A DNA stretch of 64,000 nucleotides, taken from Aliarcobacter vitoriensis (GTDB taxonomy: Bacteria; Campylobacterota; Campylobacteria; Campylobacterales; Arcobacteraceae). Below the pieces are notes generated by a model. It made no database searches. It saw only the letters and a program-made list of their open reading frames with translations, and was not told the origin of the DNA. The stretch's first letter is position 1; every line of letters begins with the position of its first letter. This document shows positions 12,461-20,201 of this stretch, in pieces. A program made the translations under genes and the position numbers. Where the stretch lies: NCBI RefSeq assembly GCF_003316695.1, contig NZ_PDKB01000004.1, positions 62,001-126,000 on the forward strand. The letters are read 5' to 3'.

Positions 12461-12730
12461 TTATTTTGTAGGTGTTTTTGATAAAATATTTGGTAATTTT
12501 TCTTTAGTTTTATTTGATTTTTTTGGTTGATAAAGCATATGATGCCATAATGCAAAACCACAAAAAGCTACTCCTGCAACAATATGAGTTTTTTTTGCAA
12601 CAGAATTTTTCATAAACATTGATGTCACAACAGTTGCACCTAAAGTAGCAGTCATACCTATTTTTGCAACTTCTCTTTGAACTTCTAAATCAAATTTTAT
12701 CTCTTTCATCTCTTTTTTTTCTTCTTTCAT
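12461..12730 (-). CDS. 89-residue two-span membrane protein, end of fez-like cluster
   Basis: Small basic protein with a charged N-terminus and two hydrophobic segments (about residues 23-41 and 48-66), ending in a Lys-rich tail. No family recognised. A second in-frame ATG at 12709 (MKEIKFD) is possible. Its start lies inside the 39-codon ORF just upstream, so the two are probably coupled. It is the last gene of the ATPase/ferritin-like cluster and could be an organelle membrane component, which is inference from position. Confidence 0.6.
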   Translation of the reverse strand: MKEEKKEMKEIKFDLEVQREVAKIGMTATLGATVVTSMFMKNSVAKKTHIVAGVAFCGFALWHHMLYQPKKSNKTKEKLPNILSKTPTK

Positions 12731-12809
12731 AAGTTTTAATACTTTTTTTCACTGTTTTCACTGTTAAAATAGCTGTTAAGGCTGTTGCTATTGGTAATAA
12801 AATCGGCAT
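12690..12809 (-). CDS. 39-residue small membrane peptide overlapping next gene
   Basis: Starts MPILLPIATALTAILTVKTV behind AAGGATTTTACCAA, then an extremely basic tail (KKSIKTYERRKKRDERDKI). It has one membrane helix at about 2-20. The last ~40 bases overlap the start of the next gene in another frame. Good RBS, composition and lack of a gap to neighbours support it, but it is short and without recognised relatives. Confidence 0.5.
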   Translation of the reverse strand: MPILLPIATALTAILTVKTVKKSIKTYERRKKRDERDKI

Positions 12810-12877
12810 TTGGTAAAATCCTTTAATAATAATTCTTAGAATTTTACCAATATAACCTTAAATACAACTAATAACAA

Positions 12878-15001
12878 TTATTGTTTTTTAGCTTCTTTAA
12901 CCTTTGCACCTTTAATAGAATTTAATAATAAACCTATTGTTGTTCCATTATGTAACACAGCTGTTACTATAGGAGAAAATAATCCAAATGTTGCCCCAGC
13001 TAAAATACAAGAATTTATACCTACTGTTGCATTGAAATTTGTATTTATCAATCCCATTGTTTTATTTGCATACTCTTTTGCCTCAACTACTGCTGAAATA
13101 TCATCTTTTAATAGACTAATATCTGCAGTTGCTTTTGCAATATCAGCACCTCTAAACATAGATATTCCTACATGAGCAGAAATTAATGCTGGTGCATCGT
13201 TTATTCCATCGCCAATGAAAGCTACTTTTTTACCTTCATTCATCAAATCTTTTACAATTTTAGCTTTATCTGTTGGTAAAAGTTCAGCTCTTACATCTTC
13301 TATTCCAAGTTCTTTGGCTATTTTTAGTGCTTTTGATTTTATATCACCAGTTAGCATAACTATATTTTTTACACCTAAATCTTTTAATTTTTTTATAGAT
13401 TCTTTTGAATTTTCTCTTAATTCATCAGAAAGACCAATTGTTCCTAATAATTTTCCGTTATAACCAATATAGAGTAAAGTATCACTTTTTTTTAAGGATT
13501 TTTCTATTTTTTCTTTACACTTTGAAAAATCTATTTTTTCATCATCTTCTAAAAAGTGACGACTACCTATAATTACAGATTTCCCATCAACTTCAGTTTT
13601 TACTCCATGAGCTACTATAAACTCTACTTCTTCATGATGCATATGTACAAAACCACGCTCTTTTGCTGCTTTTACAACTGCCTCTGCAACTGGATGAAAG
13701 TAGTGTTCCTCTGTCGAAGCAGTAAGATTTAGTAGCTCTTCGCTGCTCCAATTATCATCATATGAATCAACACTTACAACTTCTAATTGACCAGCTGTTA
13801 AAGTTCCTGTTTTGTCAAAAACAAAAGTATCAGCACTACTTAATGCTTCTACAGATTTTGCTCCTTTTATCATAATTCCACTATGACCAGCTTTCGATAT
13901 AGTAGATTTAAAAGCAACAGGAGTTGCTAATTTTAATGCACATGAGTAATCAGCTTGAAGCACAGACGCTACTCTTTCAAAATCTCTTGTAAAAATATAT
14001 GCAGCGGTTGCTAAACCTAAAGTTACAGGAACTAGTTTATTTGCTAATTTATTTGCTTTTAATTGAACTGATGATTTTTCGTTTAAAGAATTTTCAATAT
14101 AGTGCCTAATTCTTTGCGTAGCAGTATTTGCTCCTACATGTTCAGCCCAAATTCTAAATCTTCCTTCTTCAACTATAGTCCCAGATAAAACTTTATCTCC
14201 TCTAACTCTTACAATAGGTTCAGCTTCTCCTGTCATAGATACTTGATTTACAGTTCCTGTTCCTTCTAATATATGTCCATCAATAGGAATAGTATTCCCA
14301 GTTCCTACAACAACAATATCTCCAACTTTAATATCTTCTGTTTTTACTAAAACTTCACTAACTTTTCCATCTATCTTTTTTTCAAGCCAAGCTTCTTCTA
14401 CATTTGGACGAGCTAGTTCTTTTAATAAATCATCACTTTTATGAACGGTTGTTTCCTCAATATACTCACCAAGTTCTAACATAGCGTTTGTAGAGTTTGC
14501 TGCTAAATAATCTTTTCTATAAATAGAAATAGCGACTGCTCCTGCTTCAAGAACATGAGAAGTTAAACCTTCATTAAATAACTCTTTTGTTCCATCAATC
14601 AAAAGAGGAATAGAAGCAGCAGTTGTTAAACCAGCTTTTAGAGTATTATTTGTAGTGAATCTTTCGGCTATTAAAGCACTTGTGGCAATAAGTGTTCCTT
14701 TTATTGAAGGTTCTTCATTGCTTACACAAGATACACAAACACTAGCTGGGTTTTTGTCACAAGACTTCAGAAGTAAATCTCTATTTAGATTTTCAATTAT
14801 ATTTTCAAGTTCTAAAAATCTATCTTCTTTAAGCTCAAATATTACAGAGTAAGCTTTTTTGTTTACTCTTACATCTTCTATAAAATCAATATCTAAAAAA
14901 TAGTTTTTTAAAATATTTTCATCAATAAAACTATCTTTTAAAATTGATAATTTATATCTAGCTCTTAAGTTTATTTGATGAACTTTAAGAAAATTGCTCA
15001 T
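12878..15001 (-). CDS. P1B-type metal-transporting ATPase, FezB-like candidate
   Basis: Membrane pump of 707 residues. The N-terminus (about 1-75) is an HMA-like fold without CxxC but with RAR at 13-15. A Cys group follows (Cys81, 89, 92). The actuator TGEA is at 257-260, the metal-site helix has SCA at 353-355 in place of the usual CPC, the phosphorylation motif DKTGT has Asp396, P1B HP is in HFHPVAEA-like context (YFHPVAEA), and GDGINDAP is intact. Two spans close the protein. The atypical SCA site and the gene context fit the ATPase of ferrosome loci (known family); other metals such as Zn, Co or Ni cannot be excluded. Confidence 0.88.
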   Translation of the reverse strand: MSNFLKVHQINLRARYKLSILKDSFIDENILKNYFLDIDFIEDVRVNKKAYSVIFELKEDRFLELENIIENLNRDLLLKSCDKNPASVCVSCVSNEEPSIKGTLIATSALIAERFTTNNTLKAGLTTAASIPLLIDGTKELFNEGLTSHVLEAGAVAISIYRKDYLAANSTNAMLELGEYIEETTVHKSDDLLKELARPNVEEAWLEKKIDGKVSEVLVKTEDIKVGDIVVVGTGNTIPIDGHILEGTGTVNQVSMTGEAEPIVRVRGDKVLSGTIVEEGRFRIWAEHVGANTATQRIRHYIENSLNEKSSVQLKANKLANKLVPVTLGLATAAYIFTRDFERVASVLQADYSCALKLATPVAFKSTISKAGHSGIMIKGAKSVEALSSADTFVFDKTGTLTAGQLEVVSVDSYDDNWSSEELLNLTASTEEHYFHPVAEAVVKAAKERGFVHMHHEEVEFIVAHGVKTEVDGKSVIIGSRHFLEDDEKIDFSKCKEKIEKSLKKSDTLLYIGYNGKLLGTIGLSDELRENSKESIKKLKDLGVKNIVMLTGDIKSKALKIAKELGIEDVRAELLPTDKAKIVKDLMNEGKKVAFIGDGINDAPALISAHVGISMFRGADIAKATADISLLKDDISAVVEAKEYANKTMGLINTNFNATVGINSCILAGATFGLFSPIVTAVLHNGTTIGLLLNSIKGAKVKEAKKQ

Positions 15002-15384
15002 TAGAACTCTTTTGTTGCATTCATTGAAGCTTTTGCATCTTCAATTCTCTCTTTAAGTTCTTCAACTCCAGCACTTAAAAATTCTTTTCCTTTTTCAAAT
15101 GCTTTAAAAATATTTTCTTGAGCATTTTTATTTGTTAATACATAAGTCAATGCTGCTCCAATCAAAGCACCTTTTACAAAATCTCCATTCAAAATTGAAT
15201 TATTTTGTTGAACAGGATTATTAACATTTTGAGTATTTTGATTTACATTTTGGTTAATGTATGGATTTTGGTTTATATTTAATCCACTTTGATTATTATT
15301 TACCCTTGTATTATTTATATTTGTATCATAAGGATTAACATTGATTTGATTGTTATTTATTTGGTTATTTTGATTTGTTGCCAT
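15001..15384 (-). CDS. Asn/Gln-rich low-complexity membrane-associated protein
   Basis: 127 residues from the ATG at 15384, which has a strong GAAGGAG site; an ATG at 15399 is poorer. By my count about 36 of the first 65 residues are Asn or Gln. Then come a short Gly/Ala-rich hydrophobic helix (about 70-85, GDFVKGALIGAALTYVLT) and an amphipathic charged C-terminus (about 90-120), like YtxH-type proteins. The stop overlaps the ATPase ATG (TAATG). Possibly a scaffold or membrane-shaping protein; this is inference. Confidence 0.75.
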   Translation of the reverse strand: MATNQNNQINNNQINVNPYDTNINNTRVNNNQSGLNINQNPYINQNVNQNTQNVNNPVQQNNSILNGDFVKGALIGAALTYVLTNKNAQENIFKAFEKGKEFLSAGVEELKERIEDAKASMNATKEF

Positions 15385-15385
15385 A

Positions 15386-15736
15386 TTATTCTCCTTCAAT
15401 TTCTATATTTTGATTTGTTAAATATTTTTGTTCTAATTTTTCTTCTACTAATTCTAAAGCATAAATTCCAGCAATTCCTATACTTGCTGATGTTAAAGCT
15501 TTTAACCAACTTCCTTCACCAATATAGTTTGTAGTTGCTATTGCACTTCCAGTTGCTATTGCTCCTTGTGAAGTTCTTTTTGTAGTATCTTTTATGGCTT
15601 CACAGCTTTTCATTTCACCATTTTTATATTTTTTGTAGTTTATTGCTCCACTAATAACTGCACTAGCTAATGCACCACTTATTACATGACCTAAAACATT
15701 TCTAGGAGTTCCAGTATTTATTTCAAAATTTTTCAT
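15386..15736 (-). CDS. 116-residue glycine-zipper membrane protein
   Basis: Contains two hydrophobic Gly/Ala-spaced stretches: LGHVISGALASAVISGAI (about 16-33) and a second region about 60-95 (GAIATGSAIATTNYIG...ASIGIAGIYALEL). The small-residue spacing resembles glycine-zipper membrane proteins. No family recognised. AAGGAAG precedes the ATG; the stop lies one base before the next gene start. In this cluster it may be a structural membrane protein, by analogy with small hydrophobic proteins of organelle loci. Confidence 0.7.
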   Translation of the reverse strand: MKNFEINTGTPRNVLGHVISGALASAVISGAINYKKYKNGEMKSCEAIKDTTKRTSQGAIATGSAIATTNYIGEGSWLKALTSASIGIAGIYALELVEEKLEQKYLTNQNIEIEGE

Positions 15737-15996
15737 TATTTAACTTCCTTTTGTTTTCTAGTATATTTTCTTTTTGGTTTTACTTCTTCTTTTTTAATCT
15801 CTTTTTTTTCAGGTTTTTGCTGTAATTTTTCTTCTAGTTTTTCTTTTACAGTAACTACTTTTTCTTGAAGTTCTTTCGAACTATCTTTTGCATACTCAAA
15901 AAGTTTTTTACTATTTGCTTTTAATTTATCAGAATTTTTATAAGCTATTATAGCTCCTACACCAACTGCTAAGCCTAAGATAAAAGGTAATGCCAT
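15736..15996 (-). CDS. 86-residue YtxH-like protein
   Basis: One N-terminal membrane segment (LPFILGLAVGVGAIIAY, residues 3-19), then a long charged Lys/Glu helix likely to be a coiled coil, and a very basic C-terminus (KPKRKYTRKQKEVK). This plan matches YtxH/DUF-type membrane-tethered helical proteins. GGAG precedes the ATG, and its stop overlaps the ATG of the following gene. Specific function unknown. Confidence 0.7.
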   Translation of the reverse strand: MALPFILGLAVGVGAIIAYKNSDKLKANSKKLFEYAKDSSKELQEKVVTVKEKLEEKLQQKPEKKEIKKEEVKPKRKYTRKQKEVK

Positions 15997-15999
15997 TTT

Positions 16000-16674
16000 T
16001 TACTCCTCTTCTTTTGAATTTTGTGCTAAAAAATTATTCAATAGTGCAATTATTGCACCACCACTTACTGCTCCACCAATCATTGATATATTTAATTTTG
16101 AAAATAGTGAAGAGATAAGGCTTTCATCTATATTTCCATTCATTACATTATTTAGAATATCTTGATACTCTTGCATTTTTTGCATAATATCATCTTGATT
16201 TCCAGTAGTTGCTCCACTATTATAGTGATTAAACACACAATTTCTAAAAGCTGGAAGATGATTATTATATGAAGCTGCTTGAAGTTTAAATAATACATCA
16301 ACAATATCATCATCGATTGCAAAATTTAAAAGATTGTTGTACATTGCAATATTGTCAATCTCTCCTGCAACACCTAGTTCACAACACTCAATTATTGTAT
16401 TTGGAATATTGATGATTTGTGTTGAAAAATCATTCATTGGAACTTCAACATTATACTTTTGCATAAGCTGGATTAGAACACTATAATGTATAGCTTCTGC
16501 CTCTTTTATATTTATAAATGGATTAATATTTCCAAATTTCTCAATAATTCTTGTGTATGTTTCGTAAGCTTTGAACTCATCATAAATTGCAATTTGCAAA
16601 ATTTGATCACGAACTGGTACATTTGAGTTTGTATCAACTTTTTTGTTTATTAAAATATTATAATCAATTGCCAT
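16000..16674 (-). CDS. Ferritin-like (DUF2202-type) protein
   Basis: 224 residues with the pattern of a ferritin-like four-helix bundle: Glu33 and Glu38 in AIYDEFKAYETY, then ExxH (Glu60, His63) in KEAEAIHYSVL. A second half has Glu105 in GVAGEIDNIAMY and His139 in ASYNNHLPAF. The second ExxH is incomplete (Tyr136 at the Glu position). A C-terminal hydrophobic segment (about 200-215, GGAVSGGAIIALLNNFL) suggests membrane attachment. AAGGAGGT precedes the ATG. A diiron ferroxidase or iron-binding role is inferred from fold and context. Confidence 0.72.
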   Translation of the reverse strand: MAIDYNILINKKVDTNSNVPVRDQILQIAIYDEFKAYETYTRIIEKFGNINPFINIKEAEAIHYSVLIQLMQKYNVEVPMNDFSTQIINIPNTIIECCELGVAGEIDNIAMYNNLLNFAIDDDIVDVLFKLQAASYNNHLPAFRNCVFNHYNSGATTGNQDDIMQKMQEYQDILNNVMNGNIDESLISSLFSKLNISMIGGAVSGGAIIALLNNFLAQNSKEEE

Positions 16675-16988
16675 TAAATTACCTCCTTTGCCAAATTGTT
16701 TATAAGAACTGTAAGTTCATCTAAATTCTCAGATTTTATCAAATCTTCCCATAGTTTTGGACTAAAAATATCTGGATTATATAAAATCGTCACAGAAGCT
16801 ATTATTTTATTAATTTTTATCTCTTTTATTCCATTTATTTTATTTGGAAGATTTTGAATATCATCCAAAGTGATATTTGAAGCCTCTTTTGTAATTTTTG
16901 GATTTACCCGTACACGAAGTCTTCCAGGTGAATGAGCTATAATTGTAAAATAACTTGCCATTTTTATGATATCTTCTGTTTTAATCAC
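16674..16988 (-). CDS. HMA-like protein without CxxC, FezC-like candidate
   Basis: 104 residues from a GTG at 16988 placed seven bases after GGAG; a TTG at 17006 would put the Shine-Dalgarno inside the gene. It has the HMA-like beta-alpha-beta pattern without the metal-binding CxxC, and a conserved-looking SPGRLRVRV (Arg23, 25, 27). The ATPase of the cluster carries a similar RAR near its own N-terminus. It is the first gene of the tightly overlapped cluster, downstream of a Fur-family gene. Confidence 0.72.
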   Translation of the reverse strand: MIKTEDIIKMASYFTIIAHSPGRLRVRVNPKITKEASNITLDDIQNLPNKINGIKEIKINKIIASVTILYNPDIFSPKLWEDLIKSENLDELTVLINNLAKEVI

Positions 16989-17050
16989 AATAGTCTCCTT
17001 TTTCAAATTGTATTTTTTCGTTTTTAAAATTAAATGTAACTTATTATAAA

Positions 17051-17518
17051 TTAAGAATTGCTATCAGAGTTTTGACACTCTTCGCAAATACCATAAATAA
17101 TCATTATATGGTTGCTAAGAATAAATTTATGTTTTTTTGCTACTTCTTGTTGTTGTTCTTCTATAAAATCATCTGTAAACTCTTTTATTAGATTGCAATT
17201 TGTACATACAAGATGGTCATGATGAGTTTTATGGTTGAATTCATATCTAAATGTTCCATCGCCAATATCTAGTAAATTTACTAGGTTTAGTTGATGAAAG
17301 AATTTTATAGTATTGTAAATAGTAACTATGCCTATATTAATATTGTAATTTTTTTTTATCTCTTCTAAAATATCTTCAGCTGTTAGATGCTTTTTTGATA
17401 GAAATAGAGTTTTTAAAATATAATCTTTTTGAATTGTATTTTTTAAACCCACTTTAGAAGATTGTTTTTTAAAATTATTTAAAAATAGGTCAAACTCTTT
17501 TTCTTGATTTTTATCCAA
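17051..17518 (-). CDS. Fur-family metalloregulator heading the fez-like cluster
   Basis: 155 residues with an N-terminal winged helix (TAEDILEEIKKNYNINIGIVTIYNTI) and the metal-binding THHDHLVCTNC plus C-terminal GICEEC, so both Cys pairs of the structural zinc site are present. It starts at TTG behind AAAGGTG. The gene runs in the same direction as, and 62 bases upstream of, the HMA/ferritin/ATPase cluster, which makes it the likely regulator of that cluster. Whether it is global Fur, PerR or a local copy cannot be told from sequence. Confidence 0.88.
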   Translation of the reverse strand: MDKNQEKEFDLFLNNFKKQSSKVGLKNTIQKDYILKTLFLSKKHLTAEDILEEIKKNYNINIGIVTIYNTIKFFHQLNLVNLLDIGDGTFRYEFNHKTHHDHLVCTNCNLIKEFTDDFIEEQQQEVAKKHKFILSNHIMIIYGICEECQNSDSNS

Positions 17519-17604
17519 TTTATAACACCTTTAATCTCATAAAAAACTAAATTATTTAAGAGATTCTATCATTATAAATCTTAATAATTTAGTAATTTTA
17601 ATTA

Positions 17605-18834
17605 TCAGTTGTATTTGTTTGCTTTATTGTTTAATAAAATAAGGATAACACCTATTATTGCAGCAGTTATAGAACTAGCAAAAATTCCTAGTTTTACAGC
17701 ACTTACGATACTTTCATCACTAAATGCCAAATGTGATATAAAAATAGACATTGTAAAACCAATACCACCTAGAAATCCAGCTGCAATAATTTCACTCCAA
17801 GATACACTAGCAGGTTTTACAGATATTTTTAGTTTTGTTGCTAAATATGTAAAAGTGAATATTCCAATAGGTTTTCCTAAAATTAAACCTAAAGCAACTC
17901 CTAAAACAATATACTTATGAGTTATAACACTTGAAAAATCTATGATAACTCCAGCATTTGCAAAAGCAAAAAGTGGCATTATTACAAAAGCACTAAAATT
18001 ATGTAAAGCTAAAGATAGTTTATCAAGTGGAGCGTTTTCAAATTCGTAATTTTTATCAAAGTTTTTTGTTTTTAGAGGAATTGTAAATGCCAATAAAACT
18101 CCAGCAATAGTTGAGTGAATTCCAGAGCTATGTACACAAAACCATAAAATAATTCCTAAAACAATATAAGGTAATATTTTTCTAACACCAATGTAGTTTA
18201 AAAATATTAAACAAGCATAAACTAAAGCACTATATAAAAAGAATATATAATTAAGTTCACTTGTATAAAATATAGCTACAACAATAATAGCACCCAAATC
18301 ATCAACAACTGCAAGAGTTACTAAAAATAGTTTTAAAGATATATTTACTCTTTTTCCTAAAAGCATCAAAATCCCTAAAGCAAATGCTATATCTGTTGCC
18401 ATAGGAACACCAAATCCTGTTGGATGTTCTTTATTTAAACTAAGATAAATAAGTGCTGGTATTATCATACCCCCAATAGCAGCAATAATTGGGAAAGAGG
18501 CTTGTTTAAAACTAGATAGTTCTCCAACAAGCATATCTTTTTTTATCTCCATACCAACAACTAAAAAGAATATTGCCATTAAAACATCATTTACCCAATG
18601 AAGTAAACTCATAGAAAAACTATAATTTGCAAAACTTATAGAAAGATATGATGAAAAGAATTCAAAGTAGTTATTTGAATAGCTAGAATTTGCAATATAT
18701 ACTGCAAGAACTGTAACTAAAAATAAGATTATCCCACTTAGAGTTTCAATAGATACAAAGTTTTTTATAAAATCATACCTACTTTTTAATTTTGCTATTT
18801 GTTGTTTTTGTATTTCTGTAAATATCTTAGCCAT
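17605..18834 (-). CDS. nhaA: Na+/H+ antiporter NhaA
   Basis: Inner-membrane antiporter exchanging protons for sodium. 409 residues and about 11-12 spans. The essential TLAVVDDLGAI pair of Asp, MATDIAFALG and GFLGGIGFTMSIFI are all present. Its ATG overlaps the 3' end of the upstream Zur-like gene, so the two are co-transcribed, an unusual pairing that could link sodium export to a metal-responsive promoter. No truncation seen. Confidence 0.95.
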   Translation of the reverse strand: MAKIFTEIQKQQIAKLKSRYDFIKNFVSIETLSGIILFLVTVLAVYIANSSYSNNYFEFFSSYLSISFANYSFSMSLLHWVNDVLMAIFFLVVGMEIKKDMLVGELSSFKQASFPIIAAIGGMIIPALIYLSLNKEHPTGFGVPMATDIAFALGILMLLGKRVNISLKLFLVTLAVVDDLGAIIVVAIFYTSELNYIFFLYSALVYACLIFLNYIGVRKILPYIVLGIILWFCVHSSGIHSTIAGVLLAFTIPLKTKNFDKNYEFENAPLDKLSLALHNFSAFVIMPLFAFANAGVIIDFSSVITHKYIVLGVALGLILGKPIGIFTFTYLATKLKISVKPASVSWSEIIAAGFLGGIGFTMSIFISHLAFSDESIVSAVKLGIFASSITAAIIGVILILLNNKANKYN

Positions 18835-19201
18835 TTGTATTACACTCTTTACATTTACCTTTTAATATTATATTTTCAATTTTATAATCTTTTAGTTTTA
18901 GATTTAGATTTTCATGAATACACTCAATTTTTGAACAAGAATTACAAATAAAATGGGAATGAGGTGATTTTTTTATCTCAAAATACCTTTTTTTATCGTT
19001 TGATTCAAATGAATCTACTATTCCTTCATCTTCAAAGATGGTAATATTTCTATAAAAAGTTGCTTTATCCATAGAAATTTGAACTTTTATATCTTCGTAA
19101 GATAAAGGTTTATTTGAGTTTATTAAAATCTCTAAAATAGATTTTCTAGCAGTTGTTAATTTTATATTGGTAAAATCCGAAATATTTTTTAAATTATTCA
19201 T
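18827..19201 (-). CDS. Fur-family regulator, probable Zur
   Basis: A short 124-residue Fur-family protein with winged helix (SMDKATFYRNITIFEDEGIV), HSHFICNSC and a terminal CKEC. The Zur assignment comes from context: it is divergent from znuA across two near-identical palindromic sites, one of which overlaps its own predicted -35 region. It lacks the longer N-terminus of typical Fur. Overlaps nhaA downstream. Confidence 0.82.
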   Translation of the reverse strand: MNNLKNISDFTNIKLTTARKSILEILINSNKPLSYEDIKVQISMDKATFYRNITIFEDEGIVDSFESNDKKRYFEIKKSPHSHFICNSCSKIECIHENLNLKLKDYKIENIILKGKCKECNTNG

Positions 19202-19252: not shown

Positions 19253-19281
19253 TTAAAGAAAAAAGAGTTTAATATTTTGAT

Positions 19282-19296
19282 TGCAACTAAGTTGCA
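19282..19296. promoter_or_regulatory. Zur/Fur-type 7-1-7 operator, copy 2
   Basis: TGCAACTAAGTTGCA: a perfect 7-1-7 palindrome ending 20 bases before the znuA start. Its centre is 44 bases from copy 1, close to four helical turns, so both dimers would bind the same face. The 7-1-7 form is typical for Fur-superfamily sites. Confidence 0.75.
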
Positions 19297-19316
19297 TTAA
19301 AATAAAAAGGAAAAAT

Positions 19317-20201
19317 ATGAAAAAAATTTTAGTTTTATTTATGTTTTTTGCATCAGTTTTGTATGCAAATAAACCACAACTAACGGTGAATATTTTACCA
19401 CAAAAATATTTTGTAGAGCAGATTGTAAAAGATAAGTTTGATATAAATGTTATGGTAAAACCTGGTAGTTCACCACATAATTTTGAGCCAAAACCATCTC
19501 AAATGAAAGCATTAAATGCTTCAAAGGCATATTTTTTAGTTGGTGATCCAAGTGAATTAGCATGGCTTGATAGATTTAAGCAAAATGCTAAAAATACACT
19601 TTTTGTTGATACAACTATTGGAATAGAAAAAATTGCTATGGTTGAACACTCACATCATGATCACGACCATGATGAAGATGATCCACATCATGAACACCAT
19701 GACCATGGAGAAGATGGACTAGATCCTCATACTTGGCTTGATCCAATTTCTGTAAAAGTTCAGGCAAAAAATATCTATGAAGGAATGCTAAAAATTGATG
19801 CTAAAAATGGTGATTTTTATAAAGCAAATTATGAAAATTTTATAAAAGAACTTGATGACTTAGATAAGGAAATAAAAAATATTTTAGAACCTTTTAAAGG
19901 TAAACCTTTTATGGTGTTTCACCCATCTTGGGGATATTTTGCGAAACAATATGAATTAAGTCAAATTTCTATTGAAATAGAAGGTAAAGAACCAAAACCA
20001 AATGAACTTGTAAAGCTTGTAGAAGAAGCAAAAACACATAATATCAAAATTATTTTTGTTGCTCCACAGTTTTCTCAAAAAAGTGCAAAAACAATTTCAC
20101 AAAATATCGGAGGAAATGTTGTTTCGATTGACCCATTAAGTGAAGATTGGAAAGATAATATGCTTAAAACAGCAAAAGAGATAGCAAAAAGTTACAAATG
20201 A
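19317..20201 (+). CDS. znuA: Zinc-binding periplasmic protein ZnuA
   Basis: Solute-binding protein of a high-affinity zinc uptake system. The 294-residue protein has a signal peptide (KKILVLFMFFASVLYA), PGSSPHNFEPKPSQ with a zinc-ligand His, a His/Asp-rich loop (about residues 110-133), GLDPHTWLDP and FHPSWGYFAKQY. Start at 19317 has AAAAGGA in front; an upstream TTG at 19281 falls in the operator and was rejected. It overlaps the following NicO-type gene by ATGA. No znuB or znuC is in the window. Confidence 0.93.
   Translation: MKKILVLFMFFASVLYANKPQLTVNILPQKYFVEQIVKDKFDINVMVKPGSSPHNFEPKPSQMKALNASKAYFLVGDPSELAWLDRFKQNAKNTLFVDTTIGIEKIAMVEHSHHDHDHDEDDPHHEHHDHGEDGLDPHTWLDPISVKVQAKNIYEGMLKIDAKNGDFYKANYENFIKELDDLDKEIKNILEPFKGKPFMVFHPSWGYFAKQYELSQISIEIEGKEPKPNELVKLVEEAKTHNIKIIFVAPQFSQKSAKTISQNIGGNVVSIDPLSEDWKDNMLKTAKEIAKSYK

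Follow-up and report, generated by a model that had tools for sequence, protein, structure and literature searches.

Ferrosomes, tiny iron stores wrapped in a membrane, were recently recognized as a class of bacterial organelle. Those of Rhodopseudomonas palustris CGA009 are reported to be made from six fez genes (RPA2333-2338), and two papers present FezC as a haem-b cytochrome of DUF4405-like type, with haem sites formed by its homodimer (PMC10979944, PMC11334425). For the loop of MamC (Mms13, a magnetosome membrane protein), a peptide study reports that D14 binds iron, that the D14A change abolishes the effect on magnetite size, and that two acidic residues are required for interaction with magnetite (PMC6206293). 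In this study, we explored a locus at positions 12461-17006, minus strand, of a stretch of 64,000 nucleotides from Aliarcobacter vitoriensis (NZ_PDKB01000004.1, positions 62,001 to 126,000; hereafter the window), which we read, with a probability of roughly 0.8, as a ferrosome (fez-type) operon of Arcobacteraceae. We favor this reading because its ATPase falls in a strongly supported clade with an SCA motif, six of its genes match a Rhodopseudomonas operon one for one, and the CGA009 text ties such a set to ferrosomes; because the last gene is FezC-like with two invariant histidines and the gene order is conserved over Campylobacterota; and because of MamC homology, a predicted ferritin fold with fully conserved ligands in the genus group, and Fur-box-like sites upstream of nearly half of the distinct operons scanned.

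Correspondence with described fez operons

The locus consists of eight open reading frames (ORFs) in one array, with coordinates read from the ORF list, in the order HMA-like protein, ferritin-like protein, 86-amino acid (aa) protein, 116-aa MamC-like protein, YtxH-like protein (about 127 aa), 707-aa P1B ATPase, 39-aa ORF, and 89-aa FezC-like protein; a Fur-family gene lies directly upstream. In Rhodopseudomonas sp. BR0M22 (L100), six consecutive genes encode a fusion of HMA and a FezC-like segment, an HMA-like protein, a protein of the 86-aa type, a protein in the MamC position, a YtxH-like protein, and FezB, and Azospirillum brasilense has the identical six-gene set. Six of the eight window genes pair one for one with the BR0M22 operon: counterparts of the HMA-like, 86-aa, MamC-like, YtxH-like, FezB, and FezC proteins are all present, and the window operon is therefore the six-gene set plus a ferritin-like gene and the 39-aa ORF. 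The Rhodopseudomonas FezB also carries SCA; yet FezC is fused to HMA there, as it is in Azospirillum, whereas in the window it is a separate small last gene, and the Rhodopseudomonas protein in the MamC position lacks the MamC-type loop present in the window protein. In betaproteobacterial fez operons (Aromatoleum, Rhodoferax, Rhodocyclus; L106, L109, L128, L156) a ferritin-like gene likewise stands between the HMA-like and 86-aa genes, although its ligand positions look degenerate in several (alignment A10) and the protein in the MamC position does not match MamC. This equivalent position is occupied by a ferritin-like gene in 13/80 named loci, all 13 Betaproteobacteria by title; the named loci, the best 80 of 467 when sorted by similarity to the Azospirillum FezB, contain no Shewanella, R. 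palustris, or Desulfovibrio, are in some cases too short for a whole operon, and were read for gene order from plus-strand ORFs.

An earlier note on this DNA had proposed a fez locus extended by a ferritin-like protein, and most of its description holds: the eight minus-strand genes and the Fur-family gene lie where it placed them, the HMA-like protein lacks not just CxxC but any cysteine, and the small proteins, far from being related only to unrelated systems, have positional counterparts in the six-gene operons of Rhodopseudomonas and Azospirillum. The ferritin-like extension is real, with a predicted ferritin fold, and is also found in the betaproteobacterial operons. Calling the locus divergent was too strong, because its ATPase is 52% identical to that of Azospirillum over 85% of its length.

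The fourth transmembrane segment (TM4) of the ATPase carries S353-C354-A355 where Cu and Zn pumps carry CPC, the substitution seen by the earlier note. In a 34-row IQ-TREE phylogeny it belongs to a 21-row clade (support 100/99) with fez-like operon ATPases from Rhodopseudomonas, Azospirillum, Magnetospirillum, Aromatoleum, Rhodoferax, Sinirhodobacter, Aeromonas, Vibrio, Cereibacter, and other Campylobacterota; this clade is presumably the one named P1B-6 in the literature. ACP replaces SCA in the Cereibacter member, and the sister branch (94/84) is an ATPase of Fusobacterium that carries SCG. Outside lie Escherichia coli CopA and ZntA, Cupriavidus PbrA, the CPC pump of pMOL30, the TPC and CPC pumps of pSymA, the other three P1B ATPases of the window genome (all CPC), and P1B ATPases found upstream of some fez operons. 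No grouping with Zn/Cd/Pb or Cu pumps, an outcome that the earlier note had set against its own fez reading, or with TPC-type pumps was thus seen in this tree, which was built without founding FezB proteins and without Co-type P1B-4 references, the plasmid stretches fetched having yielded none of the latter, and which carries a long-branch warning among its outside rows. The motif and the separate clade rule out a Cu or Zn/Cd/Pb exporter identity.

Three minor features of these ATPases may be recorded here. A CVSC motif at FezB residues 89-92 (window 14726-14737), which follows the N-terminal HMA-like part and precedes the first hydrophobic segment, occurs in 5/8 rows of alignment A2 and is a possible metal or redox site. 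In two genomes of another family (L078, L079), FezB is 613 and 617 aa long and lacks the HMA-like part, and their operons are reduced, with no ferritin-like or FezC-like genes found. In six Campylobacterota loci (L065, L068, L061, L070, L071, L073) the fez operon is immediately preceded by a Fur-family gene together with an additional P1B ATPase (for instance L065:2326-4503, L068:2606-4762, L061:10338-12662); the three additional ATPases included in the tree, whose TM4 reads SCPC(S/A), group by themselves with 100/100 support at the end of a long branch.

The locus represents a complete, conserved fez set in Campylobacterota. A FezB profile (A2) matched 87/249 genomes of this phylum, once each, at E≤1e-120, spread over 18 of 55 genera. 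Among 29 Campylobacterota loci, chosen for diversity except for eight taken for their MamC-like gene, HMA, YtxH-like, and FezB genes were found in all 29, the MamC-like gene in 26, and ferritin-like and FezC-like genes in 25 each; the order HMA, ferritin-like, 86-aa, MamC-like, YtxH-like, FezB, FezC is held with few losses, and because the identical order recurs in this way the array is far beyond chance. Counting the window genome, the 116-aa protein turned up in 27 of the 60 relatives searched. Moreover, the whole operon is encoded on a chicken-meat plasmid of Arcobacter sp. DSM 115972 (L054, CP129951.1), and a second Arcobacter plasmid from chicken meat (CP134847.1) has at least a close relative of its ATPase, so the fez operon can sit on a plasmid.

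Like the FezC/DUF4405-like cytochromes, the product of the last gene is short, with two helices and two invariant histidines; it resembles FezC, the ferrosome haem-b cytochrome, and may bind haem, with DUF4405 matches below the curated cut-off both in the window and in a relative (L021). Regarding regulation, the window genome has four FUR matches, the upstream gene being one, and a Fur-family match precedes the operon in several relatives. Scanning 30 upstream regions (28 distinct) with the Fur-box consensus gave a site with ≤3 mismatches upstream of 13/28 distinct operons and ≥4 mismatches in 15; the clearest, TGATAATAATTATTA in L021, has 1 mismatch and was equaled in 0/100 shuffles. The operon may be controlled by Fur.

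A MamC relative and a ferritin-like protein in the operon

By sequence, the 116-aa protein is a homologue of MamC, a relationship absent from the earlier note. The NCBIfam MamC model (NF038051) matches it at E 8.5e-7 and 29.2 bits, short of the curated cut-off of 100 bits, so that it is not to be filed as MamC; searched against the whole window genome, the model finds this protein only (E 2.5e-6). It matches 0/14 control genomes and 5/11 genomes asked, picking out the fez protein in the window genome and in another fez-bearing Campylobacterota, true MamC in two Magnetospirillum, and a frame in one Rhodoblastus, and it also matches 7/17 members of a broad fez alignment (E≤0.01). In the reverse direction, the Campylobacterota fez profile (A1) matches 24/41 Magnetospirillaceae genomes at E≤0.1, in 28 places; sorted by reading the sequences and their YtxH- and HMA-like neighbors, 19 are MamC-type and 7 fez-operon proteins. 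In one genome (G287) the sole A1 match (E 2.5e-6) falls at the place of the MamC model's own match. Profile-profile comparison of the two families (hhalign) gave a probability of 94% and a score of 47.5, against a maximum of 19.3 in 200 column permutations, 12.7 for the reversed profile, and 15-21 for four other operon families. A MamC profile (A12), which matches MamC loop fusions in the PDB, recognized 19/20 distinct Arcobacteraceae fez proteins at E≤1e-3, 4/21 from other Campylobacterota, and 1/77, a Vibrio, from Alpha-, Beta-, and Gammaproteobacteria; by these counts MamC is therefore closer to the Arcobacteraceae and Vibrio type than to the fez protein of its own class.

The likeness extends over about 90 residues and includes the acidic loop: D14, which we located on the sequence by our own count through its neighbors G16, E18, and T19, aligns with D50 of the 116-aa protein and the second acidic residue with E46. 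In the genus group (18 loci, from 17 genomes and one plasmid), D50 is retained in 18/18 and position 46 is E or D in 16/18. The predicted fold has three helices (residues 14-38, 44-73, and 77-110; mean pLDDT 90.6). Unlike MamC, the protein sits in a fez operon and not in a magnetosome island, and no magnetite is known here. Two Magnetospirillaceae genomes, G295 (L187, L200) and G322 (L189, L199), each hold a MamC-type protein plus a separate fez-operon counterpart. In a Magnetospirillum genome (G289, L201), a weak MamC-profile match adjoins a frame matching the ferritin-like profile with 96 bits.

The 224-aa protein is predicted to have the four-helix fold of ferritins. It narrowly misses the Pfam cut-offs of DUF2202 (21.8 bits vs 22) and Rubrerythrin (21.1 vs 22.8). 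Its AlphaFold model has a helical core at residues ~11-150 with pLDDT 93-99, followed by an uncertain C-terminal part ending in a Gly-rich hydrophobic helix. The best Foldseek match, and the sole one below 0.001, was MJ0754 (E 8.2e-5), and VIA-align superposed the model on bacterioferritins, a Dps-like protein (PA4880), and MJ0754 with Z 16-17 over 128-144 residues. The putative di-iron ligands, E33, E60, H63, E105, and H139, are retained in all 18 genus-group loci; in 20 other Campylobacterota/Arcobacteraceae loci outside that group E33 is kept in 18 and E105 in 19. What sets the protein apart from the superfamily members named is its hydrophobic tail, its fez operon context, and its place below the Pfam cut-offs.

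A PF00210 search of the window genome found no classical ferritin and a single PF00210 protein, Dps by its sequence. Over the genus (G000-G030), a classical ferritin occurs in 4/8 genomes without the fez MamC-like gene versus 1/23 with it (p 0.0098, a value that ignores kinship; two of the eight fez-lacking genomes are <80% complete). Of 20 stretches fetched for this classification 18 gave a protein, the rest being judged by E-value. There is thus a weak hint that, within the genus, genomes tend not to combine the fez operon with a classical ferritin.

Proposed working and competing explanations

If the locus makes ferrosomes, its working may be pictured as follows. Under iron shortage the Fur-type regulator would let go and the operon would be switched on. 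The Gly-rich small membrane proteins (86-aa, MamC-like, YtxH-like, and 39-aa) may help to set up a membrane vesicle, into which FezB, driven by ATP and partnered by the cysteine-free HMA-like protein, would transport iron, presumably as Fe(II). FezC, as a small b-type cytochrome, might pass electrons through the vesicle membrane. Anchored by its C-terminal tail, the ferritin-like protein could oxidize Fe(II) at its putative di-iron site, and the MamC-like protein would touch the forming mineral with its acidic loop. The operon offers two leads into the working of the organelle: a relative of MamC, whose loop is known to bind mineral, and a ferritin-like protein within the gene set.

A broader proposal builds on these leads: that ferrosomes and magnetosomes have a mineral-contacting membrane protein in common; that the MamC family is wider than magnetosomes, with Arcobacteraceae members in ferrosome operons that kept the acidic loop, magnetosome MamC and this kind of fez protein going back to a single ancestor through recruitment from one organelle to the other; that in this branch a membrane-anchored ferritin-like enzyme oxidizes ferrosome iron, deposited against the MamC-like loop; and that the organelle replaces classical ferritin. 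We offer it tentatively, as an account somewhat more likely to be wrong than right; if true in function, the MamC link would join two bacterial iron organelles via a shared part. Our literature search, in which sources were seen in part and the two founding ferrosome papers were not covered, found no paper reporting a MamC homologue or a ferritin-like protein in ferrosome operons, nor one linking ferrosomes with Campylobacter.

Several results weigh against the ferrosome reading or its parts. The comparison is anchored on a congeneric Rhodopseudomonas sequence together with published text, not on the founding fez proteins (D. magneticus, S. putrefaciens, R. palustris CGA009), and the organelle is here predicted from genes. 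The FezC match is weak (DUF4405 E 0.027), and the window's own Fur-box-like site, TGATAGCAATTCTTA, just upstream of TATAAT, is poor, with 4 mismatches and within the range of shuffles. The ferritin-like gene is missing from the operon in 4/29 loci, and in the 20 loci outside the genus group E60 is retained in 8, H63 in 9, and H139 in 11; likewise, in other families the D50 position is D in 4/22 loci. Since the ferritin ligands and the acidic loop are so often lost outside the genus group, oxidation and mineral contact cannot be general to all such operons. The apparent avoidance between ferritin and fez vanishes (p 0.18) once the ferritin count takes in a 171-aa PF00210 protein, unclassified here, that four fez-bearing genomes encode. 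As for MamC, the model found no match in 6/11 genomes, including five named fez-bearing ones; its Rhodoblastus match, which we take as noise, is a 1058-aa frame (L163) that lies outside the fez locus and shows no real match to the Campylobacterota fez profile; and two of the 28 Magnetospirillaceae places (L196, L201) are neither clearly MamC nor clearly fez.

Part of this evidence would fit a ferrosome operon whose MamC likeness is functionally meaningless, a convergence of Gly/Ala-rich membrane hairpins. A score of 29 bits is far under the MamC cut-off, the counterparts in Alpha-, Beta-, and Gammaproteobacteria mostly go without a MamC match, and loci outside the genus group have often lost the acidic pair; yet the whole-genome matches are reciprocal, the control genomes stayed empty, and the profile-profile score lies well above those of permuted and reversed profiles and of four other families of the operon, so that we regard such convergence as unlikely. 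P1B ATPases are mostly exporters, and no organelle has been seen here; the locus might instead serve metal efflux or detoxification at the cytoplasmic membrane and form no organelle, with FezB exporting iron or another metal and the ferritin-like protein acting as a buffer. However, the ATPase belongs to the fez-like clade, apart from the tested exporters, five further genes match the six-gene ferrosome-type operon of Rhodopseudomonas, and the small hydrophobic proteins and the FezC-like protein would be needless for simple export, which leaves this explanation quite unlikely. Least credible, to the point of being very improbable, is a remnant or relative of a magnetosome gene cluster making a magnetic mineral: it can draw on the MamC homology, but the remainder of the operon is fez-type, the two Magnetospirillaceae genomes mentioned above hold MamC and a fez counterpart separately, and MamC is the sole magnetosome family among the NCBIfam matches of the ten proteins scanned (no genome-wide search for other magnetosome genes was made). 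The ferrosome reading thus stays the preferred one.

Operon layout and neighboring genes

The features of the locus are collected in table 1. The genes are tightly packed, although less regularly than the earlier note had it, where most were said to overlap by 1-2 bases: an overlap of exactly one base occurs at 3/7 junctions (HMA-like/ferritin-like, 86-aa/MamC-like, and YtxH-like/FezB), two others are gaps of 3 and 1 bases, FezB and the 39-aa ORF are 68 bases apart, and the 39-aa ORF shares 20 or 41 bases with the FezC-like gene, according to which start is used. GTG 16988 is a more probable start of the HMA-like gene than TTG 17006, because the resulting length matches that of relatives. For the YtxH-like gene ATG 15384 is more likely than TTG 15399; alignment A6 starts at 15381, its first methionine missing. 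Pfam and NCBIfam scans of the 86-aa and YtxH-like proteins gave weak matches only.

Table 1. Features of the fez-type locus of the window, listed from upstream to downstream
Feature	Position	Strand	Basis
Fur-family regulator, 155 aa	17051..17518	-	Pfam FUR 1.7e-30; adjacent, probably the regulator
TATAAT, possible -10 box of the operon	17043..17048	-	Sequence and scan
HMA-like protein without cysteine, 104 aa from GTG 16988 (ORF list: TTG 17006)	16674..16988	-	Pfam HMA_2 E 3.4e-6, 27.5 bits vs cut-off 30; alignment A5
Ferritin-like protein, 224 aa; predicted four-helix domain, putative di-iron ligands E33, E60, H63, E105, H139, Gly-rich hydrophobic C-terminal tail	16000..16674	-	DUF2202 and Rubrerythrin just under cut-offs; AlphaFold; Foldseek; VIA-align; ligand counts
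86-aa protein, hydrophobic N-terminal segment, basic tail	15736..15996	-	Place conserved; positional counterparts in Azospirillum and Rhodopseudomonas
MamC-like protein, 116 aa, loop E46-A-I-K-D50	15386..15736	-	NCBIfam MamC E 8.5e-7; reciprocal search; hhalign and controls; model pLDDT 90.6
YtxH-like protein, ~127 aa, Asn/Gln-rich N-terminus, one Gly-rich hydrophobic segment	15001..15384	-	Profile match in 29/29 loci; Azospirillum and Vibrio counterparts match Pfam YtxH below cut-off
FezB-type P1B ATPase, 707 aa, TM4 motif DYSCALKLATP	12878..15001	-	TIGR01525; tree; 87/249 Campylobacterota genomes
39-aa hydrophobic/basic ORF	12690..12809	-	Matches at equivalent place in relatives, e.g. L017, L020-L023, L054
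FezC-like protein, 89 aa, inner ATG at 12709	12461..12730	-	Pfam DUF4405 E 0.027, 15.4 bits vs 26.7; relative L021 E 0.014; His49 and His63 invariant 7/7 (alignment A3)

Downstream, the array is followed by a gene that, from a reading of its protein sequence, we take to be pyrH. Upstream, the stretch 17519-17604 between nhaA and the Fur-family gene contains an inverted repeat that has TATAAT in its loop and runs into a string of T; perhaps this is the nhaA terminator overlapping the promoter of the Fur-family gene. A further Fur-family gene (18827-19201, minus strand), whose product may be Zur, lies beside a gene for a ZnuA-like binding protein with a His-rich stretch (19281-20201, plus strand).

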